IMG/VR virus record: IMGVR_UViG_3300032242_001495
Location: 1 to 41,572 of that record
DNA length: 41,572 nucleotides
Origin: a virus
Reading direction: 5' to 3' (one strand)
The position numbers and the translations under genes are program-made. Positions within the stretch are counted from its first letter, which is position 1. Each line of letters starts with the position of its first letter. This document shows positions 16,794 to 30,811 of this stretch, piece after piece. A model generated the notes under the pieces. The model saw nothing but the letters and a program-made list of their open reading frames with translations, was not told the DNA's origin and did not search any database.

Positions 16794-16822
16794 TTGACAA
16801 ACAGGCTAAGTCTGTGGTTGAC
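16794..16822 (+). promoter_or_regulatory. Promoter P1 for the HTH regulator
   Basis: TTGACA (16794-16799), a 17-base spacer and TTGACT (16817-16822) preceded by TG. It is the weakest of the seven strong family members: the -10 lacks the usual TA start, and its downstream part repeats TTGAC. It lies immediately after the phosphoesterase stop and 24 bases before the regulator ATG. Confidence 0.5.
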
Positions 16823-16845
16823 TAGAACAAACGAAAGGAGCACGA

Positions 16846-17082
16846 ATGGCTATCACAAACGAAGAGTTCGCTAGTCGCGTCGGCTGTCACTTTACCATGG
16901 CTTCACGCATGCGTAACGGTCACCGACTCCCTAGCGTCCGCACTCTCATCAAGATTTCAAGTGAGTTCGACCTGAAAATGGACGACTTGACCTCCGCTTA
17001 CTCGGCTGGTCCAGTCACCTTCAGTGAGTTCTTGCGCGAAAACGTGTTTGACGCCGTGTCGAACCCGAGCCTAGTCGCCTAG
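16846..17082 (+). CDS. HTH (XRE/Cro-like) transcriptional regulator
   Basis: The ATG follows GAAAGGAGCACGA. The 78-residue protein has a Cro/C1-type helix-turn-helix: E-E-F-A-S-R-V-G-C-H-F-T-M-A-S-R-M-R-N-G (about 6-25), then R-L-P-S-V-R-T-L-I-K-I-S (about 27-38). A short extra helix follows for dimerisation. It stands alone between promoter P1 and a strong terminator, so it is a one-gene transcript. It is the only clear regulator here and the natural candidate to bind the TTGAC-N5-GTCAA dyads over the early promoters. No integrase is present, so it more likely controls timing than lysogeny. Confidence 0.8.
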   Translation: MAITNEEFASRVGCHFTMASRMRNGHRLPSVRTLIKISSEFDLKMDDLTSAYSAGPVTFSEFLRENVFDAVSNPSLVA

Positions 17083-17100
17083 ACTAAGCCCCCCAAAACC

Positions 17101-17173
17101 GACCCCCATCGGATTCCGCGAGGCAGTTCCCACTCTCTCCTGCCTTTAGCGACGCGCCGATGGGGGTCTTTTT
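17101..17173 (+). terminator. Intrinsic terminator with extended branched stem
   Basis: A perfect 12-bp stem (17101-17112 with 17157-17168) is followed directly by TTTTT (17169-17173). The enclosed 44 bases fold further: CGCG (17117-17120) with CGCG (17153-17156) and AGGCAG (17121-17126) with CTGCCT (17140-17145). It ends the regulator transcript and separates it from promoter P2 12 bases downstream. Confidence 0.88.
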
Positions 17174-17184
17174 GTACCACCTAC

Positions 17185-17244
17185 TTGACAAGGTGTCACG
17201 GGATATGTTTTACTTGGAAGTACGGGGTCAGCACGGACCTCGTA
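17185..17244 (+). promoter_or_regulatory. Promoter P2 with leader hairpin
   Basis: TTGACA (17185-17190), 18 bases, TTTACT (17209-17214) preceded by TG. A TTGAC-N5-GTCAC near-dyad covers the -35 box. The leader folds into a 9-bp stem with one G-T pair (17221-17229 with 17236-17244), then a GAGAGAATCGAGAG purine tract leads to the ATG at 17263. Confidence 0.75.
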
Positions 17245-17262
17245 GAGAGAATCGAGAGAAAA

Positions 17263-17436
17263 ATGTGGTTAATTGAAAAAATCGTTGAGCAGTTAAAGGT
17301 CAGCGAAGAGGTTGCTAAGGGCGTTCTATACGAAATGAATTGTGGCTCGCTACGATTCAGCGAAGCAACAAACGCACAAATCCGCGCCGAAATCAAATAC
17401 TGCTATTCTGAGTACCTACGCAAGGTCGGTGCTTAA
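17263..17436 (+). CDS. Small hypothetical early protein
   Basis: The ATG at 17263 is chosen because it follows the leader hairpin and the GAGAGAAAA tract; upstream in-frame starts lie inside the promoter. The 57-residue product is mostly helical (W-L-I-E-K-I-V-E-Q-L-K-V-S-E-E-V-A) with a C-terminal Y-S-E-Y-L-R-K. Not recognised. First gene of the P2 operon, expected to be expressed early. Confidence 0.6.
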   Translation: MWLIEKIVEQLKVSEEVAKGVLYEMNCGSLRFSEATNAQIRAEIKYCYSEYLRKVGA

Positions 17437-17438
17437 TC

Positions 17439-17612
17439 ATGTTAGATTTTGACCGCAATCACGACAAGCCCTGCACCAAGTGTGGCGCAGAAATGCACTG
17501 GCTAGAAGTGTTTCCTAACGAAGTTTGCGTGGATTGTCACAGCAAAGCGTGGGACGCTGGCACAGTTCAAGTAGACACCGCATTCATTCAGACCATGGGA
17601 CAGGACGCTTAA
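17439..17612 (+). CDS. Small zinc-finger-like early protein
   Basis: It starts two bases after the previous stop. The 57-residue product contains C-T-K-C-G (about 13-17) and C-V-D-C-H (about 33-37), a CxxC...CxxC pattern for a zinc ribbon, and an otherwise polar end. Small zinc-ribbon proteins of this kind are common in actinophage early regions with unknown function. Spacing and reading-frame continuity in the operon support that it is real. Confidence 0.6.
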   Translation: MLDFDRNHDKPCTKCGAEMHWLEVFPNEVCVDCHSKAWDAGTVQVDTAFIQTMGQDA

Positions 17613-17614
17613 TC

Positions 17615-17908
17615 ATGAATGAAAAATTAATCAAATCAGCAGGTAAGCCAAGCATCGACGACCTTAACGACGCAATCGACTGGTTGTACATGATGTGGAA
17701 TGCGAACGCTATTCCAGACGGAACAGATGGTCTTAGCGACGACTTCGCAGGTCCAATTCTCCGCGTAATCAACATGCTAGTCACTACAGTCGAAGCGCGC
17801 GAGTTATCAGCGGCTATCGTCGAAGCGAAAAGAAAGTACGCCCGCGAACACAATATCTCATACAGCAAGGTCCGTTACACACCGCCATCAAAGAAAGAGA
17901 GCAAGTAA
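17615..17908 (+). CDS. Hypothetical early protein
   Basis: The ATG at 17615 is used: it lies two bases after the upstream stop and inside the AATCATGAA context shared with the gene before. The 97-residue product is helical (D-D-L-N-D-A-I-D-W-L-Y-M-M-W, then V-T-T-V-E-A-R-E-L-S-A-A-I-V-E-A-K) with a basic tail. Not recognised. Its stop overlaps the next start (TAATG). Confidence 0.6.
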   Translation: MNEKLIKSAGKPSIDDLNDAIDWLYMMWNANAIPDGTDGLSDDFAGPILRVINMLVTTVEARELSAAIVEAKRKYAREHNISYSKVRYTPPSKKESK

Positions 17909-18204
17909 TGAGCAAGAACACCAACACCTACAAAGACAAGACCACAATCAAAGCCACCAATTTAGACAAAGTCCGCTGGGCAGTTGAGCGCAAGCGTTCA
18001 TTCATTCACCCGTCAATGAGTGGCGTGCGCGAAGCGACTGGTTCGTACATCATCAAGTCGTACAACCAAGTCATCGCAATCTACAGCCCGACAATGGAAC
18101 GCTGGTACGTGGTGCAGGACAACTACACCGTGACCACAGCGCGCCACAAGTCGCTGGTGCTACAAACTATCTACGCGGGAGGTGAAATATTTTATCCGCT
18201 TTAA
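17908..18204 (+). CDS. Hypothetical basic early protein
   Basis: This 98-residue protein is coupled to the previous gene by a one-base overlap. It has a basic N-terminal half (V-R-W-A-V-E-R-K-R-S-F) and a beta-like second half (S-Y-I-I-K-S-Y-N-Q-V-I-A-I-Y-S, then W-Y-V-V-Q-D-N-Y-T-V). Not recognised. The end overlaps a possible ATT-initiated gene in the -1 frame at 18189. Confidence 0.6.
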   Translation: MSKNTNTYKDKTTIKATNLDKVRWAVERKRSFIHPSMSGVREATGSYIIKSYNQVIAIYSPTMERWYVVQDNYTVTTARHKSLVLQTIYAGGEIFYPL

Positions 18205-18302
18205 AGCGTCGCTGGTACGCGCGCAAATACAAGTCGGAATCGACCCCGATTTACGACGAACTAGTCAAGAAATACGGATTCAACCCACTAGGAAAGGAGT
18301 AA
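18189..18302 (+). CDS. Small basic protein with probable ATT start
   Basis: The frame opens after a stop at 18183 and ends at 18300-18302. It encodes about 37 residues with a convincing end: R-R-W-Y-A-R-K-Y-K-S-E-S-T-P-I-Y-D-E-L, then a K-K-Y-G-F-N-P-L-type close. There is no ATG, GTG or TTG, but an excellent ribosome site (GGAGGT, 18178-18183) sits five bases before ATT at 18189. The alternative is a frameshift fusion with the gene at 17908. The next gene's ribosome site (GGAAAGGAG) is its own 3' end. Real coding is likely; the start is uncertain. Confidence 0.45.
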   Translation: MLSALKRRWYARKYKSESTPIYDELVKKYGFNPLGKE

Positions 18303-18305
18303 GAC

Positions 18306-18455
18306 ATGTGGATTTCAGCAATCGGCGTTTTAGCCAGCGTGTTCATGATTTTTTTGGGCGGTTACGCTATCGGCTACAACGAAGGACGCGAGGACGAGCG
18401 CGGAACGGAACTAGCGCGCCGTCGTCACCCAGCCACCCGTCGCGCCCGTTCCTGA
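18306..18455 (+). CDS. Small single-pass membrane protein
   Basis: The ATG at 18306 follows a very strong ribosome site (GGAAAGGAG, 18291-18299). The 49-residue product has one membrane segment (I-S-A-I-G-V-L-A-S-V-F-M-I-F-L-G-G, about 3-19) and a basic, Arg-rich tail ending R-R-A-R-S, so the tail should face the cytoplasm. Function unknown; superinfection exclusion or host membrane interference are guesses. A longer frame over the same bases is a shadow. Confidence 0.65.
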   Translation: MWISAIGVLASVFMIFLGGYAIGYNEGREDERGTELARRRHPATRRARS

Positions 18456-18474
18456 CGGGTTCGACACGCTAAGA

Positions 18475-18540
18475 GGGGTCTGGTTTGACACGTGGTCAAG
18501 TAATGTGTTAGACTTGATGTATCGGGTTCAACCAGACCCC
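18475..18540 (+). repeat. Inverted repeat enclosing promoter P3
   Basis: GGGGTCTGGTT (18475-18485) is the exact complement of 18530-18540, with promoter P3 in the 44-base loop. Transcripts arriving from upstream could fold it and stall, whereas transcripts started at P3 carry only the right arm. Likely a transcription boundary. Confidence 0.6.
18485..18514 (+). promoter_or_regulatory. Promoter P3
   Basis: TTGACA (18485-18490), 18 bases, TAGACT (18509-18514) preceded by TG (ATGTGT). The dyad TTGAC-N5-GTCAA overlaps the -35 box exactly. The leader contains GAGAGAGAGAGT and AAGAA before the ATG at 18563. Strong family member. Confidence 0.8.
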
Positions 18541-18562
18541 CTAACGAGAGAGAGAGTAAGAA

Positions 18563-19171
18563 ATGAACAAGCACATCGTTCGTCACGAAGACGGAACAGT
18601 AAGCAAGCGCAACAGCGCAAACCGCACCTACCCATTCGCAATTGAAGTCGGACCAGACAATCTGGACATGGCAATCGCAGAGCGTATCGCTTTTGCGGAG
18701 AAGTCACTGGCTAGAGCGCAAGAAAAACTAGCACTGTTCATCGCTAGTGGCAAGAAGGTAAACGTCGTTAAGCGTAGTTTCGTTCGCGACGTTAATCCAG
18801 ACATCGATTACAAGGGCGACCCTTGCTACCACAACTTCGAGTTCAAATTCGCTGGTGATGGCGTCCACACTCCATGGTGCAACAGCAAGGGCGAATCGAC
18901 CGAAGGTTACCCTGAGGTGACCATCGTTTCGTACGAGGACAACTGCGCTAAAATCGAAGCGCGCTTGTACGCCGTAATTGATGCGTGCGAGCAAGAATTA
19001 GCAGAAGCACTAGCGTTGACACCCGAGACCATTAAGCACGTACAGCGCGGTTGGGGCATTATTACTTGGTGCGGTCGTGCGGACCTAGCCGTGAAGCAAC
19101 TGGACAAGTGGAACGCTCACTACGCCAACAGGGGCAACACCGTCCGAATCGTCTCGACCGAAACCCCGTAG
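18563..19171 (+). CDS. Hypothetical early protein, 202 aa
   Basis: Single-gene transcript from P3, ending just before a terminator hairpin at 19178. The product has an N-terminal polar segment, a helix (I-A-E-R-I-A-F-A-E-K-S-L-A-R-A-Q-E-K-L), a middle with scattered Cys/His (P-C-Y-H-N, P-W-C-N-S), a helix with C-E-Q-E-L-A-E-A-L, and a conserved-looking end (G-W-G-I-I-T-W-C-G-R-A-D-L-A). Proteins with such ends are frequent in actinophage early regions, without known function. Confidence 0.65.
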   Translation: MNKHIVRHEDGTVSKRNSANRTYPFAIEVGPDNLDMAIAERIAFAEKSLARAQEKLALFIASGKKVNVVKRSFVRDVNPDIDYKGDPCYHNFEFKFAGDGVHTPWCNSKGESTEGYPEVTIVSYEDNCAKIEARLYAVIDACEQELAEALALTPETIKHVQRGWGIITWCGRADLAVKQLDKWNAHYANRGNTVRIVSTETP

Positions 19172-19177
19172 GGAGCG

Positions 19178-19208
19178 AGGGGGCTGGGCTACGACACGCC
19201 AGTCCCCT
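19178..19208 (+). terminator. Hairpin terminator between P3 and P4 operons
   Basis: AGGGGGCTGG (19178-19187) pairs with 19199-19208 with one G-T pair, loop 11 bases. No T-run follows. It sits after the 18563 gene and directly before promoter P4, the same terminator-promoter arrangement seen at P5 and P7. Confidence 0.6.
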
Positions 19209-19217
19209 ACCCCCAAC

Positions 19218-19274
19218 TTGACAGCCGGTCAACCCATGTGTTAAACTGGTAATATACAGGGCGGGAAACCGCCC
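19218..19274 (+). promoter_or_regulatory. Promoter P4 with GNRA leader hairpin
   Basis: TTGACA (19218-19223), 18 bases, TAAACT (19242-19247) preceded by TG. Exact dyad TTGAC-N5-GTCAA at -35. The leader has a GGGCGG-GAAA-CCGCCC hairpin (19259-19274), a very stable GNRA tetraloop stem near the 5' end, then GAGGGAGTAAGAA before the ATG at 19294. Confidence 0.85.
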
Positions 19275-19293
19275 CCAACAGAGGGAGTAAGAA

Positions 19294-19509
19294 ATGGTTA
19301 AGGTAATCGAAGCAGTCACCACCCGCCCAATCACGATGGCGGTAACAAATCCAGTGACCAAAGTGCGTCAGGGCGCACGGTCATTTGACATGGGTACACA
19401 GGTCTACGCTATCAAGGCAGAAGACAACATGTACGAAATCCGCGTTGCAGGCACACTGTACACGCAACTTGTTTCAGACGCATCATTCACCGAATTGGCA
19501 GGTAAGTAA
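19294..19509 (+). CDS. Small hypothetical early protein
   Basis: First gene of the P4 operon, with a clear GAGGGAG ribosome site. The 71-residue product is beta-rich (V-I-E-A-V-T-T-R-P-I-T-M-A-V, then D-M-G-T-Q-V-Y-A-I-K-A, M-Y-E-I-R-V-A-G), like a small beta barrel. Not recognised. Confidence 0.6.
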   Translation: MVKVIEAVTTRPITMAVTNPVTKVRQGARSFDMGTQVYAIKAEDNMYEIRVAGTLYTQLVSDASFTELAGK

Positions 19510-19511
19510 TC

Positions 19512-20123
19512 ATGGCGACCAAAAATCAATTACTAGCAAAAGCAAGCAAGATGAACGTTCGAGTTGTAGAAGCCTTTGGTGGCGACTACTGTATCGAACT
19601 CGACGCAGTGAATCAAATATTCGCTGGGTACGGCACTAGCCACGGCATGACTGCCAGTGGTGAGTCGCCATTCGACGTATACAACGACGCGTGGTCATTA
19701 CTCAATTACTTGCGACCATGCGAAGGTTGTGACGATGACTGGTGCGGTCTTGACCGCGAGCAGACTAACGCCAAGTTGGGACGCTCAAATGACGTCGCGC
19801 TGGTAGTACCCGAGCGATTCTTTGAGGACCACTTTCAGCGTCAACTCGTTAATGACTCATTCACTTGCGTCAGCAAGGGTAACCGTCTTGCGGTGACCTT
19901 GTCATTTGCTGACGCGGAAGAGTTAATGAGTGACGCGCTGTACTACGCACTCGGCAACATGGACGACATGGACGACAACGGGCTGGTGACCAGCGCGCGG
20001 TACACGGTGCGAGCGTTAGTGCGACAAGGTCTGCACGACTACCACACACGCGACCACAGCGAAGTAAGACTAATCAACAAGTACCGTGCCGAAATGGGCA
20101 TGGCAGAACAGGAGAGCATCTAA
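19512..20123 (+). CDS. Hypothetical early protein, 203 aa
   Basis: It starts two bases after the previous stop and overlaps the next start by one base, so it is part of the P4 operon. It contains C-E-G-C-D-D-D-W-C (a possible metal site, about residues 73-81) and a C-terminal helical part with an acidic D-D-M-D-D-N stretch. Not recognised. Confidence 0.6.
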   Translation: MATKNQLLAKASKMNVRVVEAFGGDYCIELDAVNQIFAGYGTSHGMTASGESPFDVYNDAWSLLNYLRPCEGCDDDWCGLDREQTNAKLGRSNDVALVVPERFFEDHFQRQLVNDSFTCVSKGNRLAVTLSFADAEELMSDALYYALGNMDDMDDNGLVTSARYTVRALVRQGLHDYHTRDHSEVRLINKYRAEMGMAEQESI

Positions 20124-20428
20124 TGAGTTACAAATCACAAGCACTAGCACTAATGGCGCAGTTGGGCGCGGAGCACGCAGGCACGGAGTACTTTGACATC
20201 GAGCAGTGCTGGACCGTGGACTACGCACTACCTAAGGGCAAAGTGTGGGCGCGTCACGGCGAACACATGAGTTGGACACGTGAGTACACGCTGACCGACT
20301 GCTGGAAAGACCTAATCGACCTAGCGCGTGGTGGCGTGGTCGAATGCGAGAACACCTGCGACTGTCGCAACTGGGAGTACGACAACGACGAACCGTCCAT
20401 CTCCCAAATCACACATCAACTGGCGTAA
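20123..20428 (+). CDS. Hypothetical early protein, 101 aa
   Basis: Last gene of the P4 operon, coupled to its neighbour by TAATG. The acidic 101-residue product has several Trp residues and a C-E-N-T-C-D-C-R-N-W segment near the end that could bind a metal. The transcript is followed by a C-rich hairpin. Not recognised. Confidence 0.6.
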   Translation: MSYKSQALALMAQLGAEHAGTEYFDIEQCWTVDYALPKGKVWARHGEHMSWTREYTLTDCWKDLIDLARGGVVECENTCDCRNWEYDNDEPSISQITHQLA

Positions 20429-20440
20429 CCCCGACCCCGA

Positions 20441-20474
20441 CCCCCCCCCCCAAGTCGCTCCCTTGGCTTGGGGG
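20441..20474 (+). terminator. C11 tract and G/C-rich hairpin terminator
   Basis: An 11-base C run (20441-20451) leads into a stem CCCCCAAG (20447-20454) with CTTGGGGG (20467-20474). It closes the P4 operon before promoter P5. The homopolymer length should be treated with caution because such runs are prone to sequencing error. Confidence 0.55.
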
Positions 20475-20510
20475 TTCGGACGCCCCCGACACACGGGGCA
20501 GACCCCCGAC

Positions 20511-20570
20511 TTGACAGCCCGTCAAAGGGTGTGTTAAACTGGTTCTACAAGGGCAACACCGCCCTCGTAG
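20511..20570 (+). promoter_or_regulatory. Promoter P5 with leader hairpin (unknown protein + purB operon)
   Basis: TTGACA (20511-20516), 18 bases, TAAACT (20535-20540) preceded by TG. Exact TTGAC-N5-GTCAA dyad at -35. The leader folds CTACAAGGGC (20545-20554) with 20561-20570 (one mismatch, 6-base loop), then GCGAGAGAAATCGAGAG before the ATG at 20591. Confidence 0.85.
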
Positions 20571-20590
20571 CGAGAGAAATCGAGAGTAAA

Positions 20591-21265
20591 ATGAGCAGAG
20601 TAACAAAGACCAACAGCGTTGAAGGCGTAATGATGGTTGAAGGCGTACAGTACGACGTAAAAGTATCACTACAAAGAAGCCACGGACGTAGCGCACGCCG
20701 TAGCAAAGTCATGATTCACGCAAGCGAAATCGAATCACTAGTTTTCCCTGACGCTCCATACTGGGTATACGATGAAGACAAAGAGACCGCAGAATACAAA
20801 GCCAAGTACGCTACTTGGTACAAGGTTCAGGTCAAGACCGTAGCCAACTGGCGCGCATTCATCGCAGCAGCAGGTCGCGCAGGAATGACCGAGTTCAACT
20901 CGCTTGAACTTAAATGGAATGGTGACAATTTTGAGTTCACCGCACCGCAGACCGCAACCGATTGGTACGACATCAATGACTACGTGGTCCGCATCGCTCC
21001 AGTTGGCACATTTGAAGCCGAGCGCGTAGCAAGTGCAGACCGTAAGACTGAAGCAGACCGCAAGTTAACAACCGCAACCGACCTTGCGCTTGAAGCGTTT
21101 GCTAACACTCCTGAGATGTTTATCGCCCAAATCAATTTCGAGGACTCAACCTACTACTTCGGCAAAGCGAACAACGGCAAGGTCTACCAAGTCAGTTCAA
21201 GCGCGATGTTTGACGTTCGTTACGCGGTAAACCGCAGAGCAGACGCGGACGTGACTAATGCTTAA
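20591..21265 (+). CDS. Hypothetical early protein upstream of purB, 224 aa
   Basis: The ATG at 20591 follows the leader purine tract; in-frame starts farther upstream lie in the promoter. The 224-residue protein has a beta-rich start with M-M-V-E-G-V-Q-Y-D-V-K-V, a middle with W-Y-K-V-Q-V-K-T-V, and an end like a small beta domain (A-Q-I-N-F-E-D-S-T-Y-Y-F-G-K-A). Not recognised. It overlaps purB by 8 bases, so the two should be translated together. Confidence 0.6.
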   Translation: MSRVTKTNSVEGVMMVEGVQYDVKVSLQRSHGRSARRSKVMIHASEIESLVFPDAPYWVYDEDKETAEYKAKYATWYKVQVKTVANWRAFIAAAGRAGMTEFNSLELKWNGDNFEFTAPQTATDWYDINDYVVRIAPVGTFEAERVASADRKTEADRKLTTATDLALEAFANTPEMFIAQINFEDSTYYFGKANNGKVYQVSSSAMFDVRYAVNRRADADVTNA

Positions 21266-22550
21266 CCGATACGAGGACGACTTCATCGCTGAAGTCTGGT
21301 CCGACACAAGCAAAATCGCCCGCTGGGTCGAGGTCGAGTTGGCAGTGCTCAGTGCGCAGGTCGTAGAGGGAGTACTGCCAGACTCGGCTTGGAAGCAAGC
21401 GGTCAATCAGCCAGTGCCGACACCCGAGCAAGTACGCGAGCAAGAGCAGTACACCCGTCACGACGTAGTGGCGTTCCTTGACGCTTGGGGCGCGGAGTTC
21501 GCGCACCTAGGCATGACCAGCAGTGACTTGGTCGAGACCGCGCAGGCACTAGCCATTGAGCAGACCACGCGCTACATCGTCGCCCTCACAGTTGAACTGT
21601 CAACAGAGTTGCACCACCAAGCAACAAAGCACTGGCGCACGTACCGCGTCGGGCGCACCCACGGACAGCGAGGTACGGTGGACCTCTGGGGGCATAGGGT
21701 CGCAGACTTCATGCTTGCGCTCGACCGCGGTGCACTCCGCTTAATCAGCGCGCTGGCGGATTGCGCAGTCGCCAAGATTAGCGGACCGACTGGCACGTAC
21801 GCCGACATCAGTCGCGACGTCGAATGCGTGGTCGCCGAAGAACTTGGGCTACGACCAACACCAGTTGCCAGCCAGATTGTCATGCGTGACTCGCTGGTCC
21901 ATTGGGCGCACTGCCTATCGAATTTGGTGTCGGTGTGCGAAGCCATCGCGACCGAAATCCGCTTGTCCGCACACGGTAACGTGGGCGAGATTCGCGAGTC
22001 ATTCGGCTCACGGCAGAAGGGTTCAAGTGCTATGCCACACAAGCGCAACCCCATCACCGCCGAGCGGATTTGTGGAATGGCGAGACTAGCACGGACCTAC
22101 GCCACATCACTGGAGTCAACCGTGGTCCAGTGGCACGAGCGGGACATGGCGCACTCATCGATTGAGCGAGTGGTCCTGCCCGACTTGAGCCACGCGGTTT
22201 GCTTCGTACTGAGCGAGACCCGCAACTTGGTCGAGAGCATGAAGGTCAACACGCACATCATGTTCGAGCAGGTCATGGTCCACGATGACGTCTACAGCCA
22301 CCGTGTCCTAGCCGCTCTTATGCGGGCGGGGATTCCGCGGAAGCAGGCGCACGACGTGGTCCAAGAAGCGTCACGGGACGCCCACAAGACTTCCTTTGGG
22401 CGCGAAATACGGGCGAAGGTATCCAAAGCCCTTCCAGATACCTTCGTGGACTGGGAAGAGGTATTCTCGCTGGAGAGTTCCGTCCAAGGACTGAACTGGC
22501 TAGGCGAGATTTTGAAAGACACACAACACAACCAACTAGGAGAAAACTAA
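21258..22550 (+). CDS. purB: Adenylosuccinate lyase (PurB)
   Basis: A full-length, apparently active lyase of 430 residues, close to the usual bacterial length. It belongs to the fumarase/aspartase superfamily and removes fumarate from adenylosuccinate or SAICAR. Key parts: R-H-D-V-V-A-F (His68), T-S-S-D (87-90), R-T-H-G-Q (133-137, His135) and the signature S-S-A-M-P-H-K-R-N-P (256-265) on the flexible catalytic loop. It is expressed with a protein of unknown function from P5. In this phage, which carries a PurZ-like enzyme, its likely substrate is succino-2-amino-dAMP, giving dZMP. As I recall, known Z-genome phages leave this step to the host enzyme. It could also simply boost adenine nucleotide supply. 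Confidence 0.92.
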   Translation: MLNRYEDDFIAEVWSDTSKIARWVEVELAVLSAQVVEGVLPDSAWKQAVNQPVPTPEQVREQEQYTRHDVVAFLDAWGAEFAHLGMTSSDLVETAQALAIEQTTRYIVALTVELSTELHHQATKHWRTYRVGRTHGQRGTVDLWGHRVADFMLALDRGALRLISALADCAVAKISGPTGTYADISRDVECVVAEELGLRPTPVASQIVMRDSLVHWAHCLSNLVSVCEAIATEIRLSAHGNVGEIRESFGSRQKGSSAMPHKRNPITAERICGMARLARTYATSLESTVVQWHERDMAHSSIERVVLPDLSHAVCFVLSETRNLVESMKVNTHIMFEQVMVHDDVYSHRVLAALMRAGIPRKQAHDVVQEASRDAHKTSFGREIRAKVSKALPDTFVDWEEVFSLESSVQGLNWLGEILKDTQHNQLGEN

Positions 22551-22834
22551 TGTACGATAACGCCGACCGCGTAGAAGAGACCGACCACGCAGGGCAGATG
22601 GCGTTGACCGCTATCCGCTTGAAGAAGACTGGACAGGTCGTAGCCAAATACCCGTCAGTCGATGGAATGCGCACCGTCTACGGACTGCCACTGCCAGCCA
22701 GCACTTGGTTGTTGATTGACGTGCTACACGATTTTAGCAACTGGACCACCGCACGCTACCACAGCGAGGGCAACTGGATTGCAGACAAGAACGCTGTGGT
22801 TAAGCAGGCACTAATGTTGTTGGCGAACGAATGA
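22550..22834 (+). CDS. Hypothetical protein downstream of purB
   Basis: Start overlaps the purB stop (TAATG). The 94-residue product has an acidic N-terminus, beta-like middle (A-L-T-A-I-R-L-K-K-T-G-Q-V-V-A) and a W-rich stretch (N-W-T-T-A-R-Y-H). Not recognised. Next start overlaps as ATGA. Confidence 0.6.
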   Translation: MYDNADRVEETDHAGQMALTAIRLKKTGQVVAKYPSVDGMRTVYGLPLPASTWLLIDVLHDFSNWTTARYHSEGNWIADKNAVVKQALMLLANE

Positions 22835-23328
22835 GTTACCACATCAGGGACGAGCGTGGCGTAGCCATGTGTAAGACGACGTACCCCGACAATAACGACC
22901 GACTGTGCGTTCTATGCGAAATGTACGCCAACACGGACAAAGACCACCCGTGTGACGTGTACCAAGAGCAGAGCGGATTCGTCGCCAGATGCGAATGTGG
23001 CTGGAGTAGTCGAGTCAAACCAACTCCTAGTCACGCCGAATCTGAGTGCCGAGCGCACTGGCGCGAGACGCTAGGTGAACTAGTGGTCTCAAAGCCAAAG
23101 AAACCGAAACCCGAAGCCAAGACGAAAGTGTGCCACTGCGGTTGCACCGAGTTGACAGCAGGCGGACGGTTCAAAGCAGGACATGACGCCCGATGGCTAG
23201 CCAAACTACGGTTAGCCGTCAACACAGGCGAAATGTCCGAGCAAGAAGCCAAGCGTCAGGTTGGCGAAGTAAGCGAAAAACTGTTGCTGAAATTTCAGCA
23301 CGCACTACAAGGAAGAGTAGTATCGTAA
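22831..23328 (+). CDS. Cys-rich zinc-binding protein
   Basis: This 165-residue protein has two probable metal sites: C-V-L-C-E-M with D-H-P-C-D and then C-E-C-G-W (about 26-57), and C-H-C-G-C-T-E-L-T-A-G-G-R-F-K-A-G-H-D (about 106-124), a motif often seen in actinophage proteins of unknown role. A Lys-rich linker (K-P-K-K-P-K-P-E-A-K) separates them. It lies between purB and a nuclease gene in one overlapping operon, so a DNA-binding role is plausible but unproven. Confidence 0.62.
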   Translation: MSYHIRDERGVAMCKTTYPDNNDRLCVLCEMYANTDKDHPCDVYQEQSGFVARCECGWSSRVKPTPSHAESECRAHWRETLGELVVSKPKKPKPEAKTKVCHCGCTELTAGGRFKAGHDARWLAKLRLAVNTGEMSEQEAKRQVGEVSEKLLLKFQHALQGRVVS

Positions 23329-24194
23329 TGCCCATCATCTCATTTAGCGAATTGGACACATATCGACAGTGTCCGTTCAAGCACCAACTCGCGTACGGCG
23401 AACGCTGGGTCTCACCCGTAGACTCAGCAGCGCTGGACCGAGGTAAGCGAGTGCACACCGTCCTCGAAAACTGGTACGAAGCATTGAAGCGTGGAGACAA
23501 CACCACGATTGAACAGGTCGCACGCGAAAGCGAGGTCGTATTCGACCAGAATGGCGATTACCTAGACGACATCGGCGAACTCGTACACTGGATTGTGCAG
23601 GGCTACGGCGAACAGTACGGGCGAGACGAACAATGGAAAGTAGTCGAGGTCGAACACGACTTCGTGCTACCGCTACCCAAGCCCGACGGCAAGAACAGTA
23701 ATATCAAGTTGAAGGGCAAGATTGACTTACTGGTCAACTGGCGCGGACGCTTGTGGCTGGTCGACCACAAGACAGCAGCGCGACTACCGAGCGACAAAGA
23801 ACTCGACCTCGACGTCCAGTTCGGGCTGTATGCGTGGGCGATGCGTCAACTTGGCTACCCAATCCACGGCATGATTTACAACACGCTTCGCACACAACGC
23901 AACAAGGGCGAGATGGCGTTAACCGACCGATTCAGTCGGACACTCATCGCAAAGAGCGACGCCGAGTTAGACCGTCTCGCACTGGACGCGTACCAAGACG
24001 CATATCAAGCGTACGCTGGCATACGCAAATCAAACAAAACGCAGGTGGACCTACCGCGCCATTACAACACCGACACGTGCAGGTGGCGTTGCCCGTACAC
24101 CGAAGCGTGCTTGTTCGGAGCGAAAGACGGACGCGGTGGCTCGCGCGGTTACTTGATTGAGACGGGTTTCGTTCAAAACTTCACCCGACACTAA
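23328..24194 (+). CDS. Cas4/RecB-like PD-(D/E)XK nuclease with iron-sulfur cluster
   Basis: The ATG at 23328 (TAATG overlap) is the true start; the upstream in-frame extension overlaps another gene. The 288-residue protein starts S-F-S-E-L-D-T-Y-R-Q-C-P-F-K, then R-G-K-R-V-H-T-V-L-E-N. The nuclease core is L-K-G-K-I-D-L-L, followed by L-W-L-V-D-H-K-T-A and a helix with Q-F-G-L-Y-A-W-A. The end has C-R-W-R-C-P-Y-T-E-A-C. One N-terminal plus three C-terminal Cys is the 4Fe-4S arrangement of Cas4, AddB and RecB-family phage exonucleases. It probably works in recombination or DNA repair with the ATPase downstream. No CRISPR array is present. Confidence 0.85.
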   Translation: MPIISFSELDTYRQCPFKHQLAYGERWVSPVDSAALDRGKRVHTVLENWYEALKRGDNTTIEQVARESEVVFDQNGDYLDDIGELVHWIVQGYGEQYGRDEQWKVVEVEHDFVLPLPKPDGKNSNIKLKGKIDLLVNWRGRLWLVDHKTAARLPSDKELDLDVQFGLYAWAMRQLGYPIHGMIYNTLRTQRNKGEMALTDRFSRTLIAKSDAELDRLALDAYQDAYQAYAGIRKSNKTQVDLPRHYNTDTCRWRCPYTEACLFGAKDGRGGSRGYLIETGFVQNFTRH

Positions 24195-24195
24195 C

Positions 24196-24258
24196 TTGTC
24201 AGGCTGGCATTCTATGTGCTAGCCTTGTAGGACACCGAGCGCGACGGTCAACTCGCGC
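24196..24258 (+). promoter_or_regulatory. Promoter P6 with leader hairpin (Sak4/DUF669 operon)
   Basis: TTGTCA (24196-24201), 18 bases, TAGCCT (24220-24225) preceded by TG (ATGTGC). The -35 dyad is degraded. The leader has GCGCGA (24239-24244) paired with TCGCGC (24253-24258), then a purine/A-rich stretch and GGAAGG before the ATG at 24289. Confidence 0.7.
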
Positions 24259-24288: not shown

Positions 24289-25119
24289 ATGGCAACTGCT
24301 AAGAAAGCGAGAGCAACACTCGCGGACCAGCGCGAAGTAGTGAAGATTCTTTACTACGGAGACGCAGGTTCAGGCAAAACAACTGCGATGTCAAGTGCAT
24401 CGCGTCTAGGTCCGATTCTCTACATTGACGCAGAGAGCGGACTAAAGCGAGGACCACTGGCTCGGCTCGGGATTCCGACCGACCAGATTGAACCGCATCA
24501 AACCATCACATTCGAATCGCTAGAGCAGGTCTACTTCGAGGTCAAAGCACGACTCGACGACGACCCAACTGCGATTTCGGCTGTGATTTTGGACTCAGTT
24601 ACCGAGATTCAAAAGATTCTGCTCGAGAACATCATCGGCAAAGCGGTCACCAAGGCGTCAAGCCGTGGCATGGACCGCGACCCGTTTCAGATTGACCGAG
24701 CAGATTGGGGCGTCGTAACCGAACAAATGCGACGACTCACACGACGATTCCGAGACCTGCCATGTCACGTGGCATTCGGAGCGTTACCTAAGCGCGAAGT
24801 AGATGACGACGGAAGTGTCACTTACTCGCCAGCGTTGACACCAGCATTCCAGACAGACCTCATGGGATACGTTGATGTCATCATTCACACCGAGGTTCGC
24901 GAAATCGGTGGCAAAGAGTTCCACATCGGTACATGTAAACCAGTTGGCAAGTTCACTGGCAAAGACCGATTTGGCATTTTGCCACAGACTCTCGTTGACC
25001 CAACACTGGACCGTGTTGTCGCATACGTAAATGGCGACCTCACAGCCGAAACCGATTCACGCCAAAAAGAAGCGCGTGAAGCATCACAACAGCGCGAAAC
25101 CGCGCAGGAAGAGAAATAA
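24289..25119 (+). CDS. Sak4-like RecA-fold ATPase (single-strand annealing / recombination)
   Basis: The 276-residue protein has an early Walker A (G-D-A-G-S-G-K-T-T, residues 24-32) and a Walker B-like strand (S-A-V-I-L-D-S-V-T-E, near 105), as in phage Sak4 and related AAA ATPases of the RecA core type. Later parts include R-F-R-D-L-P-C-H-V-A-F-G-A and a charged, Gln/Glu-rich tail. Sak4 proteins help single-strand annealing and often sit beside an SSB-like protein and an exonuclease, exactly the neighbours here. Confidence 0.8.
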   Translation: MATAKKARATLADQREVVKILYYGDAGSGKTTAMSSASRLGPILYIDAESGLKRGPLARLGIPTDQIEPHQTITFESLEQVYFEVKARLDDDPTAISAVILDSVTEIQKILLENIIGKAVTKASSRGMDRDPFQIDRADWGVVTEQMRRLTRRFRDLPCHVAFGALPKREVDDDGSVTYSPALTPAFQTDLMGYVDVIIHTEVREIGGKEFHIGTCKPVGKFTGKDRFGILPQTLVDPTLDRVVAYVNGDLTAETDSRQKEAREASQQRETAQEEK

Positions 25120-25552: not shown

Positions 25553-25568
25553 CCAACTAACCACTCGG

Positions 25569-25603: not shown

Positions 25604-25624
25604 GCCGTCTTAGAGAGAACTCAA

Positions 25625-28024
25625 ATGCCAAACAAAGAACAAGCACTAGAACTATTTGACGCAGGTCTGCTCCCACTGCCAGCCCGAGGTAAAGCACCGA
25701 CGGTCTCATGGCGTGACGTAGCGCAGGACCGCCCATCGCGAGCAAAAATCGCCAGTTGGTTCGACAAAGACCGCAACATCTGGATAGCCACAGGCGAACC
25801 GAGCGGAATCGTCGTCATCGACTGCGACTCACGCGGTGGTGACGTTTATTGGCGCGAACGGCTAGGCGCAGAACTGCTAGACAACACCACATGTGTCAAG
25901 ACCAGCAAAGGCTACCACTACTGGCTACGCATTCCAGTTGGAGAGAGCATCAGGTCGTGGTCCAGCGGAATCGCACAGCGAGAAATGGGCATCTCATTCG
26001 ACATTCGCGGTGACGGTGGTGGCGTAATCGCTCCGCCGAGCGTACATGAGTCAGGTCATGTTTACACATTCGTGCGAGGGCTGGATTGCCTGCAGGACGC
26101 ACCGATAGCCAAGATTCAACAGACCGCAACCGACAGCGACACAGACCCAAACGGACCAAAAAGCCTGCTATCCAGCCTACTAAGTGACCCACCATCTGAG
26201 GGCGGTCGCGACGTGTGGATAACTCGAGTCGCAGGTCACCTAGCCAAAATCGTGCCGTACCGCGACGCCTATCTGTCGCTGTTGCACACCATTAACCGCG
26301 CGCTGCCTGAACCGCTGACCGAGGACGAAATCGAGAAGAAAATCGGCGTGTGGGACAAAGAGCACGCCAAGCCAGACGTACCGACAGCCGACTCAGGTTG
26401 GCTTATTGGTGACGGGCTTTGGCTCTACACCGAGACCGTAACTGAAAGCGGTGGAGTTCGCGTGTCTGGAACAGACCGCTGGTGCAACGCCGACCTCGAA
26501 GCGCGCGGTGTTATCGACGGACCGCTCGGTCGCACCTACGCCGTCACGCTCCATCGGTCCGACGGCGAGAGTCGCGACGACCTAATCAAGGGTTCAATGC
26601 TTGGACGCATGAACGACACACTCAGTTGGCTAGCCAAGCACGGCGTCTCCGTTGTAGCCCCAAAGAACGACAACCGTAGCCGCGTCGCTGTAGGCGCACG
26701 ATTGCTCCGCTATTTAGAGAGCCAACAGCCGACGCTGTACAAGGAAGTACCGCACCTTGGCTGGGTGGACGGTATCGGATTCGTCACGCATGAGGGCGTA
26801 ATCACGGCGTCTGGTATGAAAGCCCACGAAGGTGTGATGCCAAATCCAGCCCTGCAGAACCTTGCTCCGTTCGTGTACGGAATGGGCAACCCCGACCGCG
26901 CAGTGGAAGTCTTGCGCGAAGTGTTGACCTTCCACGACGAGACCGTGACCGCTGTATTCGGCGCGTGGTGGATAGCCACACTGCTCAAAGGTCAGTACAT
27001 GGGCGCAATCGGTCACTTCCCTTACTTCGCTATTGAAGCGTCCAGCGAGAGCGGTAAAACTCGAGGATTCTTTAGGCTAATGCTCAACTTGGCTGGCACA
27101 ACGCGATTCGGCGAGTGGACCAAGGCAGCAACACGCGACGCAATTGGCGCGCACCGAAACGGAATCGTTCACATTGACGACTCAAACCGACTAGACAACA
27201 TCGCAGACTTACTGCGCCAAGCAACTGGCGAAGGGTCTGAAGGCAAGAAGGCTGCAGACAACACAGGCACAGTTGATATCAAGTTGGTGTCACCAGTTTT
27301 AATCACGGGCGAATCGCTTGGCGAATTGGGCGGTGGCGAGAAAGCACAGCGCGACAGGCGCGTATTGCTAACTGACGTGCCAAGTCCAGTTGGACGCAAA
27401 AGCACGAAGGGCGACTACCCACAATGGGACGACGTTAAACGACTCGAGCGCGTTGAAGGCGATTTGAGTAAATACGCTGGTACGATGGTCATGCTAGCAC
27501 TTCAGCGTGAACACATGATTGGCGAAGTAACTGACCTTAGAACTGGACATGGTCGTCACCACGAAGTGCTAGCGATTCTTCGAAATGCTGCTAGGATTCT
27601 AGCGGACATCATCGACGACGAGAGTGTCGTGCGCCTAGTGGACGCATGGTGCGAAGGACAGCGCGATTTCGGCTCAGAGAACACGCTGGTAACGAAGTTA
27701 CTACCGTGGGCTATCATTGACGAGTTTGGGCAGATGATTGACCGCATGGGGGGCGAGCCACCAGCGTTCGTTGAGAATGGTCTGGTCTACCTACACCCTG
27801 ACCGCTTGGCTGCTGCTTGGCAGAAGGAATTGAGGAAGCGCGGTAAGAACGACCGCCTAGATAGTCCCGAAGCCATCAGAGCGCAGCTCCGTGCCCTCGG
27901 AATAACTGGGTCGGTGTTCAAGCGCACTGGAGTCGGCAGAGACGCTCCGAAAGCCCGTTACGTGGCTCTAGACGGTACTTGGTCAGAGCGCGTCATCGAA
28001 ATCGCAAACAACGGTTGGGAGTAA
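25625..28024 (+). CDS. Primase-polymerase / helicase (PrimPol + DUF927-like ATPase)
   Basis: A 799-residue replication protein. Residues 1-145 form a Prim-Pol domain of the archaeo-eukaryotic primase family: V-V-I-D-C-D-S-R (D66, D68), T-S-K-G-Y-H-Y-W (H98), S-F-D-I-R-G (D126). About 260-390 is a DUF927-type region. The ATPase follows with E-A-S-S-E-S-G-K-T-R (Walker A, 472-479), then a helicase-like part ending D-R-R-V-L-L-T-D-V. The C-terminal ~180 residues look like a DNA-binding tail. It should prime and unwind DNA. PrimPol proteins are known from the Z-genome cyanophage S-2L. It starts the replication block after the hairpin at 25569. Confidence 0.85.
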   Translation: MPNKEQALELFDAGLLPLPARGKAPTVSWRDVAQDRPSRAKIASWFDKDRNIWIATGEPSGIVVIDCDSRGGDVYWRERLGAELLDNTTCVKTSKGYHYWLRIPVGESIRSWSSGIAQREMGISFDIRGDGGGVIAPPSVHESGHVYTFVRGLDCLQDAPIAKIQQTATDSDTDPNGPKSLLSSLLSDPPSEGGRDVWITRVAGHLAKIVPYRDAYLSLLHTINRALPEPLTEDEIEKKIGVWDKEHAKPDVPTADSGWLIGDGLWLYTETVTESGGVRVSGTDRWCNADLEARGVIDGPLGRTYAVTLHRSDGESRDDLIKGSMLGRMNDTLSWLAKHGVSVVAPKNDNRSRVAVGARLLRYLESQQPTLYKEVPHLGWVDGIGFVTHEGVITASGMKAHEGVMPNPALQNLAPFVYGMGNPDRAVEVLREVLTFHDETVTAVFGAWWIATLLKGQYMGAIGHFPYFAIEASSESGKTRGFFRLMLNLAGTTRFGEWTKAATRDAIGAHRNGIVHIDDSNRLDNIADLLRQATGEGSEGKKAADNTGTVDIKLVSPVLITGESLGELGGGEKAQRDRRVLLTDVPSPVGRKSTKGDYPQWDDVKRLERVEGDLSKYAGTMVMLALQREHMIGEVTDLRTGHGRHHEVLAILRNAARILADIIDDESVVRLVDAWCEGQRDFGSENTLVTKLLPWAIIDEFGQMIDRMGGEPPAFVENGLVYLHPDRLAAAWQKELRKRGKNDRLDSPEAIRAQLRALGITGSVFKRTGVGRDAPKARYVALDGTWSERVIEIANNGWE

Positions 28025-28026
28025 CC

Positions 28027-28302
28027 ATGGTAAGAGACCTATTCATGTACGCAGGGCTGTTCACAGCGGGATTGACGGTTGGGGGGTTCGTGTCGGTCTG
28101 GGTTGTAGCCCCCAAACCGCCTGAGCCGAAAAAGGCTAAGGTGACGGTGACCGTGTCCAAAATCTGCACCCACGCTCTGGTCGAGTACAAAAACGACCAC
28201 CCAATCATCACATTCAGCCCGTGCTCATGTGAGACAGAGGGCGTGGCACAGGGTGAGACACAAATCGAACAAGACAAGGAGTCAAGCGGTGTCTCGGATT
28301 AG
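28027..28302 (+). CDS. Small membrane-anchored protein
   Basis: The ATG at 28027 is used, two bases after the primase stop; the longer frame to 27979 overlaps the primase. The 91-residue product has one membrane segment near the start (L-F-M-Y-A-G-L-F-T-A-G-L-T-V-G-G-F-V, about 5-22), then V-S-V-W, a Pro/Lys stretch, a short beta region with two or three Cys and an acidic tail. It could be a small lipoprotein-like or anchored phage protein. Function unknown. The gene's 3' half lies inside the iteron-like cluster. Confidence 0.55.
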   Translation: MVRDLFMYAGLFTAGLTVGGFVSVWVVAPKPPEPKKAKVTVTVSKICTHALVEYKNDHPIITFSPCSCETEGVAQGETQIEQDKESSGVSD

Positions 28303-28470
28303 AAGCCTATGTGCCACAATTAGTGCCACAGGGGGGTTGAGACACACAGAACCCCGTCGTTTGGGGAAGAAGGACCTTGTGTCTCGGTGTCTCATATTTT
28401 GGAATAGAATTAATTACGTGTGCGCGCATGCGCGCCTAAACCTACTCGTTCTCTCGGAAGGGTGAGACAC
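28231..28470 (+). other. Iteron-like repeat cluster, candidate replication origin
   Basis: Within 240 bases the 7-mer GAGACAC or its complement GTGTCTC occurs six times: 28255-28261, 28289-28295, 28339-28345, 28379-28385, 28387-28393 and 28464-28470, plus a near copy at 28231. GTGCCAC or GTGGCAC occurs three more times (28243, 28311, 28323). An A/T-rich stretch follows (28394-28417), then the perfect palindrome GCGCGCATGCGCGC (28422-28435). The cluster lies between the primase and polymerase genes and partly in non-coding DNA, as many phage origins do. A regulatory operator array is the alternative. Confidence 0.6.
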
Positions 28471-30315
28471 ATGAAGATAGATAAACCAACCGAAGTGCTA
28501 CCAGATGTTACAGGACTGGTCGTCGCCGTGGATACTGAGACCAGCGGTCTACACGTTGATGATGGCGCGACCGTGTCAGTAGTTAGTGTGGCGTGGCGAG
28601 AAGAAGGCACACAGCCACGACTAGAAGCAGGCATTGTCGGATTTGCGTTCCCGTTCGACCAAGGACGCTTCGCTGAAAAGACAGGCACAACCGCCAGCCC
28701 GTTCGACGAGGACATCAACCTCGACCGAGACGAGTGGGCGCACCTGATGTTCTGGCTCAGTAAGCAACAGTTAGTGTTCCACAATGCCAAGTTCGACCTG
28801 CACATGCTAGCCGAAGGCACGCGTGAATGGGGTGGCGTGGACCTAGTGGCACAGACCATCTGGGACACCCAAATCACACATCAACTGTTCGAACCGCTGT
28901 TGACCAGTGGACTCAAACCGACCTGCGCACGACTGTTCGGCGAACACGTGGCGCAAGAGCAACACGACGTCCAAACCGCGCTACGCAAGCAGGGTACAGG
29001 GCTGACCAAACGGTACGACCTATTGGACTGGTCAGTTGTCGGACCGTACGCAACACAAGACGCGATGCTGACCTACCGCCTAGCCGAATGGCAGTGGCGC
29101 AGACTTGAGACCGACGACCAGCACCTAGCCGTACTAGCGGACCGCGAAGTCGAACTAATGAAGGTCCTATACAAAATGGAAAAGCGCGGTATCGGATTCG
29201 ACGCCAAGCGAGCCGAAAAATCGGCGGACATCTTGCGCGCGCTCAAGGTCGAACTCGAAAACGAATTGCCGTTCAAGCCGACCATTCCAGCGGCTAAAGC
29301 CTACTATTATGGCGAACTGGGTCTGATACCGAGCAAAGTCGGCGCAAGCGGGTCACCAAGCCTAGACAATGAGACCGTGACCAAACTAGCCAAGAAGGAC
29401 GTGCCACACGCGAAAACGTACCTACGCTGGACTGAAGTGAAAAGCGCGCTAGAGAAATGGTACGGCAACTGGGGCAAACTGGTTGGACAAGATGGGCGAC
29501 TACGCACGAACTTCAGGCAGACCAAAGTAGTTAGTGGTCGGTTGAGTGTAGAGCGTGTGCAGTTGCAGGCGATTCCGCACGACTACCAACTGAAACAACT
29601 GTTCGGCGATGGAGTTGAAGGCGTGCGTGCGTTCTTCCAACCGAAAGGCAACCACCAGTTGTGGGAGATTGATATTAGCCAAGCCGAGATTCGCGTAGCC
29701 ACAGCGGTGTCTAACTGCGTGCCAATGCGCGAGCGATTAATGCGTGGCGAGGACGCACACGACGCGACCACAATGTTGGTATTTGGCATTACTAAAGACA
29801 GCCCTGATTGGGAGCAGTACCGCTCAGTCGGCAAGCGACTCACGTTTGGTATGTTGTACGGCGCGGGAGTGCGCACTACACGCGAGCAAATCAAAATGCA
29901 CACTGGCGTTGATGCGAGTGAGGGCGAAGTGCGCAAATGGGTGGACCAGTACCGCAGTGCGTTCCCCGAGTTCGTGCGCGCTGCAAAGTACGCAGACCAA
30001 GCAGTGCAGAAGCGTGGATACGTGAAACTGATTAGTGGACGCTTGCGTCACTGGGGTCTCGATGAGCAAAGTCATAAAGCGTTTAACGCAGTCATTCAAG
30101 GTGGAGTGGCGGAAGCGATGAAAATGGCGATGGTCGAAGTTGAACGTCAATTCCCTGATTTGTTGCTGTTACAGATTCATGATTCGATGGTGTTGGAAGT
30201 TCCAAACAAGAACGCGGAGCAAGTTGTCCAGCAAGTGCGTGATGTGCTAGTGGGCGTGTTTGAGTCGCTGTTCAACATCGAGTTCAAGGCGGACTATAAA
30301 CAATGGGCAAAATGA
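28471..30315 (+). CDS. Family A DNA polymerase with 3'-5' exonuclease (DpoZ candidate)
   Basis: The ATG at 28471 is chosen over the GTG at 28420 because GGAAGGG precedes it at good spacing. The 614-residue enzyme has an exonuclease start (V-A-V-D-T-E-T, D21 and E23), then the polymerase motifs: A, E-I-D-I-S-Q-A-E-I-R (D401); B, R451-x3-K455-x3-F459-x3-Y463; C, Q-I-H-D-S (H570, D571, S572). Most family members have H-D-E in motif C. No 5'-3' exonuclease domain is present, as usual in phages. Its presence with purZ and mazZ suggests the polymerase that works with dZTP (DpoZ in known Z phages). Its gene stop overlaps the next start. Confidence 0.85.
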   Translation: MKIDKPTEVLPDVTGLVVAVDTETSGLHVDDGATVSVVSVAWREEGTQPRLEAGIVGFAFPFDQGRFAEKTGTTASPFDEDINLDRDEWAHLMFWLSKQQLVFHNAKFDLHMLAEGTREWGGVDLVAQTIWDTQITHQLFEPLLTSGLKPTCARLFGEHVAQEQHDVQTALRKQGTGLTKRYDLLDWSVVGPYATQDAMLTYRLAEWQWRRLETDDQHLAVLADREVELMKVLYKMEKRGIGFDAKRAEKSADILRALKVELENELPFKPTIPAAKAYYYGELGLIPSKVGASGSPSLDNETVTKLAKKDVPHAKTYLRWTEVKSALEKWYGNWGKLVGQDGRLRTNFRQTKVVSGRLSVERVQLQAIPHDYQLKQLFGDGVEGVRAFFQPKGNHQLWEIDISQAEIRVATAVSNCVPMRERLMRGEDAHDATTMLVFGITKDSPDWEQYRSVGKRLTFGMLYGAGVRTTREQIKMHTGVDASEGEVRKWVDQYRSAFPEFVRAAKYADQAVQKRGYVKLISGRLRHWGLDEQSHKAFNAVIQGGVAEAMKMAMVEVERQFPDLLLLQIHDSMVLEVPNKNAEQVVQQVRDVLVGVFESLFNIEFKADYKQWAK

Positions 30316-30719
30316 AGAATCTGCACGTGGTCAGCATTGACCCTGCAGACAAGCACGTGGGCGTGTGTTTTTGGCTAGGTGGCTCAATCATCGAAGCAAA
30401 AACGATTACGCCGATTCAGATGTGCGAAATCATCGAAGTCACTCAATTCGACGCCGTTGTGATTGAAGAGTTCAGGCTCTACCCATGGATGGCGCAAAAC
30501 CTCGGATTTAATGATATGAAAACGAGCCAAATGATTGGCGCATTGAAGTTCTTGGCTAATCGCATCGGGTCGCCAGTGCATATGCAACCTGCGAGCATAA
30601 AGAAGCCAGCGTTCGCTCGCATGAAGGCAGAGGGATTTGAGATGCCTAAGGGAACGCAACACGCGAAAGACGCCGTCGCCCACGGGTTTTGGTGGCACTA
30701 CGGGTCGAAAACCCCGTAA
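30303..30719 (+). CDS. RuvC-like Holliday junction resolvase
   Basis: The RNase H-fold acidic motifs of RuvC-type nucleases are in order: V-S-I-D-P-A-D-K-H-V-G-V (Asp about 13), A-V-V-I-E-E-F (Glu about 55-56) and H-A-K-D-A-V-A-H-G (Asp about 123). The length (138) fits small phage resolvases. It probably cuts branched DNA before packaging. The ATG at 30312, overlapping the polymerase stop as ATGA, is an equally possible start three codons in. It ends in a terminator hairpin. Confidence 0.75.
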   Translation: MGKMKNLHVVSIDPADKHVGVCFWLGGSIIEAKTITPIQMCEIIEVTQFDAVVIEEFRLYPWMAQNLGFNDMKTSQMIGALKFLANRIGSPVHMQPASIKKPAFARMKAEGFEMPKGTQHAKDAVAHGFWWHYGSKTP

Positions 30720-30727
30720 CGACGGGG
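30712..30727 (+). terminator. Short hairpin terminator at the end of the replication block
   Basis: CCCCGT (30712-30717) pairs with ACGGGG (30722-30727) around AACG. It is preceded by AAAA and followed by CTTCTGGG, and overlaps the resolvase stop codon. Promoter P7 follows 26 bases later. Confidence 0.6.
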
Positions 30728-30752
30728 CTTCTGGGCGTCGGCGTGTCCCGAC

Positions 30753-30811
30753 TTGACGCTGGGGCAAGCCATGTGTTAAACTGGTTTTACGAAGTCAAAC
30801 GGGGCTTCGTA
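30753..30811 (+). promoter_or_regulatory. Promoter P7 with leader hairpin
   Basis: TTGACG (30753-30758), 18 bases, TAAACT (30777-30782) preceded by TG (ATGTGT). The dyad is degraded to TTGAC-N5-GGCAA. The leader has TACGAAG (30788-30794) paired with CTTCGTA (30805-30811), then GAGAGAGAGAAGG before the ATG at 30834. Drives the modification operon. Confidence 0.82.

Follow-up and report, generated by a model that had tools for sequence, protein, structure and literature searches.

The stretch of DNA analyzed here (the window) is a 41.6-kb virus record of IMG/VR (IMGVR_UViG_3300032242_001495, 41,572 nucleotides, G+C 53%), in which predicted promoters of one family are dispersed among the genes, together with a gene for a small helix-turn-helix (HTH) protein at 16846..17082. 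This virus of actinobacteria encodes a PurB-like lyase (21258-22550), a PurZ-like 2-amino-adenylosuccinate synthetase (32529-33566), a family A DNA polymerase, a prim-pol, a Sak4-like protein, and an exonuclease. Nearly every operon of the window appears to begin at such a look-alike promoter, with the same dyad laid over the -35 box.

The sites, all on the plus strand, were scored with a matrix derived from 83 sites of 25 further loci, excluding the window, its close relatives L010-L012 (~77% DNA identity across the replication genes), and L095. The top-ranked matches in the window were seven of the sites proposed by a first-pass annotation plus a further one at 35542; in 100 dinucleotide shuffles no score exceeded 18.0 bits, and the maximum averaged 8.3. 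The HTH gene follows a promoter at 16794..16823 (26.3 bits) with the putative operator TTGAC-AAACA-GGCTA at 16794-16808. Its spacer had been given as 17 bases, but the site reads better with 18 and an extended -10 of TGTGG-TTGACT, like the other sites; the right half GGCTA is kept in L095:19427 and L012:2624. The promoter at 17185..17214 (31.7 bits; TTGAC-AAGGT-GTCAC at 17185-17199, -10 TTTACT) heads an operon of small genes at 17263-18472. The next three promoters combine TTGACA, 18 bases, and TARACT with TGTGT before the -10, and each has an exact TTGAC-N5-GTCAA dyad: 18485..18514 (33.2 bits; TTGAC-ACGTG-GTCAA at 18485-18499; gene 18563-19171), with orthologues at L011:68 and L012:16441; 19218..19247 (32.4 bits; TTGAC-AGCCG-GTCAA at 19218-19232; operon 19294-20428); and 20511..20540 (32.4 bits; TTGAC-AGCCC-GTCAA at 20511-20525), which precedes the operon 20591-24194 with the PurB-like lyase and the exonuclease and has an orthologue at L011:803. 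The exact dyads, earlier put at "several", thus number three. The promoter at 30753..30782 (32.2 bits; TTGAC-GCTGG-GGCAA at 30753-30767, -35 TTGACG) heads the operon 30834-32496.

Three copies are poorer. The weaker promoter already suspected ahead of purZ (32529) was recovered at 32470..32499 with 20.2 bits (TTGAC-TGACC-TGCAA). The copy at 24196..24225, before the Sak4-like gene at 24289 and the replication operon (TTGTC-AGGCT-GGCAT, -35 TTGTCA, -10 TAGCCT), scored 11.5 bits, which is within chance, as 0.4 matches are expected at 11 bits or more; it stands only because a family promoter precedes the same gene in L012:8571 and L010:239. Seven of the eight sites first listed as dispersed promoters are therefore upheld by the external matrix, and the eighth by synteny. 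The late region had been described as free of copies, which is wrong, because the site at 35542..35571 (20.4 bits; TTGAC-ACGTT-GTCTC, -10 TTTACT) precedes a terminase small-subunit-like gene at 35581 and the packaging and structural genes, and its orthologue L011:17051 (TTGAC-CCAGT-GGCAC) lies ahead of a gene that is 68% identical.

Neither part of these sites stands out by itself. A generic sigma-70 scan of the window found seven sites with 8.6 expected, no excess over shuffles, and the dyad alone with up to two mismatches occurred 24 times across the window with 23 expected. The non-random feature is the joint promoter-dyad module, and single-genome promoter scans miss such modules, as the lack of excess in the generic scan illustrates. 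The predicted promoters have the features of the sigma-70 type, namely a -35 TTGACA, a spacer of 17-18 bases, a -10 TAnnnT with an upstream TG, and a start codon or leader at the predicted +1. Independent support for the promoter reading comes from 43 sites in relatives where ATG falls exactly at the predicted +1, which would give leaderless mRNAs (for example, L009:23049, L009:23834, L005:24802, and L016:4257).

Relatives were sought by protein, because the exact window module with TGTGTTAAACT was not found in IMG/VR; megablast of the window against isolated phages gave no match. The window PurZ and prim-pol share 48-57% and 34-37% identity, respectively, with their best phage matches, which belong to Korravirus (Arthrobacter), Goodman and Theresita (Microbacterium), Parvaparticeps (Curtobacterium), and Hiyaavirus (Streptomyces). 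Korra and the window have a common gene order of structural, lysis, HTH, and then replication genes. An IMG/VR search with a prim-pol alignment yielded 80 loci, L010-L012 among them, and a scan of IMG/VR with the PurB-like lyase as a single protein yielded no match. The dyad, whose conservation in related phages had been proposed as a check, was found again, with its offset unchanged, in the ~77%-identical relatives and, more widely, in phages of Arthrobacter, Microbacterium, Curtobacterium, and Streptomyces. A strict pattern of the module matched 27 viral stretches, the majority belonging to these phages. Among 84,980 bacterial and archaeal genomes it matched 16 stretches, of which none came from Actinobacteria. 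This concentration in viruses, with zero matches in actinobacterial genomes, indicates that the module is no host promoter type. Loci bearing the HTH gene contained 172 matrix matches in 903 kb versus none in the reversed sequence. The matrix found no match in Ghobes, Min1, ArV1, or phiC31, of which the last three have too few TTGAC sites for a matched-rate control and serve as zero-match controls for the matrix only.

The left half of the dyad coincides with the -35 consensus, and it could accordingly be asked whether these are ordinary promoters of the host sigma factor in which no regulator takes part and the second half-site reflects what actinobacterial RNA polymerase prefers in the spacer. 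We selected sites on a TTGAC -35 and a loose -10 with 17 or 18 bases of spacer, provided that a start codon followed, and ignored the right half. The half-site G-N-C-A-[ACT] was present in 95 of 109 such sites from 35 loci (87%, with 1.6% expected by base frequency), although the sites are partly non-independent, with three Korravirus genomes among them. Its distance was always the same, 10 bases into the module, with hardly any occurrence elsewhere in the neighborhood, and none of the 38 sites chosen with eight scrambled -35 words had it. Because the distance is constant for 17- and 18-base spacers, the right half is registered to the -35 and is not a feature of the -10. In the Hiyaavirus phages Galactica and Hiyaa, the palindrome becomes CTTGCG-N5-CGCAAG, found 16-17 times in about 48 kb; its -35 is non-consensus, its right half co-varies with the left, and its offset from the extended -10 is that of the TTGAC dyad. 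Examples are found at L002 (Galactica) 11866 and 44284 and at L008 (Hiyaa) 11081. Symmetry that survives the loss of the -35 consensus is expected of a site bound by a dimeric protein. At orthologous promoters the halves are conserved and the N5 varies, as with AAACA, AGCGA, and ACGGT between TTG(A/C)C and GGCTA at the HTH gene. The dyad module is moreover absent from Ghobes, Min1, ArV1, and phiC31 and, as the strict pattern, from actinobacterial genomes. A mere spacer preference is thus strongly disfavored and highly improbable. As far as comparison of sequences can tell, the dyad is an operator and no by-product of the -35 box, and a palindromic site that recurs at several promoters and is conserved among relatives has the makings of a regulon.

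Scattered over many places of the genome, the sites could also serve elongation control or DNA handling, as stoperators do in cluster A phages. This we consider barely plausible: among sites chosen by -35 and -10 alone, the half-site is present in 87% when a gene start lies downstream and in 27% when none does, and the 13-mers that serve as stoperators lack symmetry, lie in short gaps between genes, and are bound by a monomeric protein (PMC9283540).

The most likely ligand is the product of the HTH gene (16846..17082, plus strand), a proposed repressor of 78 amino acids of the XRE/HTH_3 type with a recognition helix at about residues 16-24. It matches Pfam HTH_3 (PF01381) over profile positions 10-55 with 1.5e-7 and 31.7 bits (cut-off 23). 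Its AlphaFold2 model (pLDDT 85.6) has five helices and shows none ahead of the HTH; the first helix usual in XRE proteins is apparently absent, given this helix-less N-terminus and a profile match that starts only at position 10. The best Foldseek matches of the model are the XRE proteins C.BclI, ImmR, P22 c2, and HigA, with good local TM-scores. The gene is predicted to form a unit of its own, lying between the promoter at 16794 and a terminator-like inverted repeat, read directly in the sequence at 17103..17174 (CCCCCATCGG...CCGATGGGGG, then TCTTTTT; plus strand), that ends ten bases before the next promoter. A generic terminator scan of the window gave no excess over shuffles and omitted this repeat because of its long loop.

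Profile searches found homologues in about 50 of 90 loci. They form a family of XRE-type proteins of 78-98 residues, encoded after the lysis genes where these are annotated, and S20, R21, R23, G25, R27, and P29 are invariant in an alignment of 23 sequences. PurZ is also present on the sequence piece in 35 of 51 HTH-gene loci. In 23 of 35 loci the HTH gene is preceded by an operator of the strict pattern, and its ATG often coincides with the predicted +1; by eye, the HTH-gene operator of Korra is TTGCG-TCGTT-AGCAA, outside the strict pattern. The suggestion that this protein is the ligand was thus strengthened, as its homologues adjoin the regulon and many have an operator at their own promoter. 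Where the recognition helix is immediately preceded by Ser (Goodman, Theresita, L068, L074, L076, L082, and L018), the half-site mostly has C or T as its outer base; where His, Asp, or Thr stands there, it has A in nearly all loci. A comparison of the helix residue with the half-site base, the loci being counted by majority, gave 1/8 versus 22/24 (Fisher p 8e-5), with a post hoc grouping, ties excluded, and statistics that ignore descent. We take this correlation as a lead, not a test. Three candidate specificities might be distinguished: TTGNC-N5-GNCAA, TTGAC-N5-GNCAC, and TTGCG-N5-CGCAA.

The dyads could instead be true operators for another protein, either a host regulator or a second phage HTH protein, such as the one encoded leftward in Korravirus phages, where a second HTH gene is indeed present. 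We consider this unlikely. The strict pattern is absent from the genomes of Actinobacteria, whereas it appears in 27 viral stretches of a far smaller set, and the post-lysis HTH gene is the one common to these phages, commonly with an operator upstream and with a helix that tracks the outer base of the half-site.

How the protein might act follows from the position of the operator. The host main sigma factor would recognize the promoters through the -35 TTGACA, a spacer of 17-18 bases, and the extended -10 TGTG(T/G)TAnACT, with the predicted +1 seven bases past the -10. Each promoter would contain an operator in the form of a 15-bp palindrome, TTGNC-N5-GNCAA, in which the -35 box itself serves as the left half. 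The XRE-type protein would bind it as a dimer and block sigma region 4; with the operator extending from about -36 to -22, the stretch in which sigma region 4 touches the -35, RNA polymerase should be kept off by a bound dimer. The protein, expressed early from its own member of this promoter family, would first accumulate and then hold back its own gene as well as the early and middle operons, with less repression at the poorer operators of 32470 (purZ, TGCAA) and 35542 (packaging, GTCTC). Alternatively, the bound protein might activate transcription or redirect RNA polymerase to the phage promoters. The poor -35 boxes of several copies, and of all Hiyaavirus ones, could fit such dependence on an activator, but the strongest copies are near-consensus promoters and the dyad overlies the very seat of sigma region 4. 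XRE activators usually bind upstream of the -35, as lambda CI does at OR2. Activation is accordingly quite improbable.

The predicted promoter module, its conservation, its association with the HTH gene, and the putative operators at many HTH genes' own promoters are established by these comparisons. On that basis, the phages probably possess a Cro-like, self-limiting repressor regulon for their early genes, in which the ligand, the repression, and the timing are what we infer. A Cro-like shut-off fits better than an immunity repressor, because no lysogeny genes are known in these phages. Neither an integrase nor a divergent repressor/cro pair was seen among the early and middle window genes scanned, which did not cover every open reading frame, and the annotations of Korra, Preamble, Wayne, and Goodman list none. 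For Goodman, a lytic life style is described (PMC7302621).

Several observations weigh against this interpretation. The Foldseek matches all have E > 0.1. The helix-base correlation is post hoc, ignores kinship, and has exceptions in L050 and L067. Loci in which no HTH gene was seen still have 24 matrix matches in 550 kb, in 10 of 28 loci, which is probably explained by many of these loci being truncated; and the HTH-bearing loci L065, L071, and L076 give no matrix match. An escape of late genes from repression is not uniform, as the packaging promoter of L011 has GGCAC.

Late promoters vary in this respect. Near the right end of Korravirus genomes (L001:43283, L006:42949, and L007:43947), we noticed a consensus promoter, TTGACA-18-TAGAAT, without the second half-site, upstream of an HNH gene that leads into the packaging genes; the right half is missing in the promoters of Korra, Preamble, and Wayne near 43-44 kb. 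This right-end promoter may escape the repressor. A general escape of late promoters was considered and not adopted, since the late copy of L011 carries a fair operator.

A broader view, which we hold tentatively and at somewhat less than even confidence, is that a group of lytic actinophages, mostly with genes for a 2-aminoadenine (Z) genome, has inherited a common regulon by which a single tiny XRE protein silences nearly every operon, including packaging. The -35-based operator would have co-evolved with the recognition helix into at least three specificities, and the repressor would read Z-substituted DNA.

Among known systems, the cluster A repressor (L5 gp71 type) is similar in that one phage HTH protein acts on many dispersed actinophage sites. 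Its site contains TGTCAAG, covering a -35. The window system differs in being palindromic, with a one-domain protein of 78-98 residues and sites at promoters, in phages without known lysogeny genes, whereas the cluster A sites are asymmetric 13-mers, many of them outside promoters, recognized by a 183-residue two-domain monomer for lysogenic immunity (PMC9283540). We considered membership in the cluster A stoperator system and rejected it on account of the palindromic sites and the 78-residue single-HTH protein. Repressors of the Cro/434/P22 type are similar in their small XRE fold, an approximately 15-bp palindromic operator over the promoter, and self-repression, which is predicted here. In contrast to them, the window showed neither an integrase nor a divergent cI/cro switch, and the operators here stand singly, at up to nine or more operons, the packaging genes among them. 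Repeated motifs of Microbacterium phage and mycobacteriophage clusters (EC, EG, EI, and the K SAS/ESAS) are likewise short repeats ahead of actinophage genes, but they have other sequences and are mostly without an assigned function; an inverted repeat and a promoter can form part of the cluster K ESAS (PMC11373665). No such repeat is reported for clusters AK and EJ or for Theresita in the available parts of the Arthrobacter and Microbacterium phage papers, supplementary files aside (PMC5513430, PMC7302621), and searches of the open literature turned up nothing relevant to the motif and no promoter study of cluster AK. The probable phage-wide off-switch is unreported within the literature covered.

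The order of gene expression in lytic actinophages is poorly known, and the sources available in part report no promoters or regulators for these groups. The present result offers a defined regulon with predicted transcription starts, a named candidate regulator, and a proposed specificity code. Wayne has been studied as a phage with Z-containing DNA (PMC12884076), and this link raises the question of how a repressor and RNA polymerase read 2-aminoadenine DNA.

A minor feature of the promoters concerns the leaders. In the window and in L011/L012, a short G+C-rich hairpin lies within a few bases of the predicted +1, followed by a ribosome site of the GAGAG type, and its sequence varies from copy to copy. 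A 5'-terminal hairpin TACGGGGTC-AGCACG-GACCTCGTA is predicted at 17221..17244 (plus strand), beginning at the predicted +1 (-13.7 kcal/mol, z -4.7). The hairpin GGGCGG-GAAA-CCGCCC at about 19259..19274 (plus strand) starts just past the predicted +1 at 19254 (-14.5 kcal/mol, z -3.0). Two more on the plus strand lie at the predicted +1, ACAAGGGCAACACCGCCCTCGT at 20547..20568 (-9.4 kcal/mol, z -2.3) and ACGAAGTCAAACGGGGCTTCGT at 30789..30810 (-10.2 kcal/mol, z -3.1), and that after the 18485 promoter (18521-18541) is weak. Covariation on a MAFFT alignment gave no support, since the hairpins slide in the alignment, and we therefore keep the claim minor, on single-sequence folds. The leader hairpins might protect the 5' ends of the mRNAs.

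The set of Z-genome genes in the window is fuller than in the first-pass annotation, comprising the PurB-like lyase at 21258-22550, PurZ, and more at 32529-34630 and 34814-35230. By eye, DUF5664-like, NDT-like, and Dut-like proteins are among them (compare phage Wayne, PMC12884076). Both ends of the window consist of collagen-like Gly-X-Y coding repeats (1-560 and 41290-41572), as if the contig had been opened within a tail-fiber gene of a circularly permuted genome.

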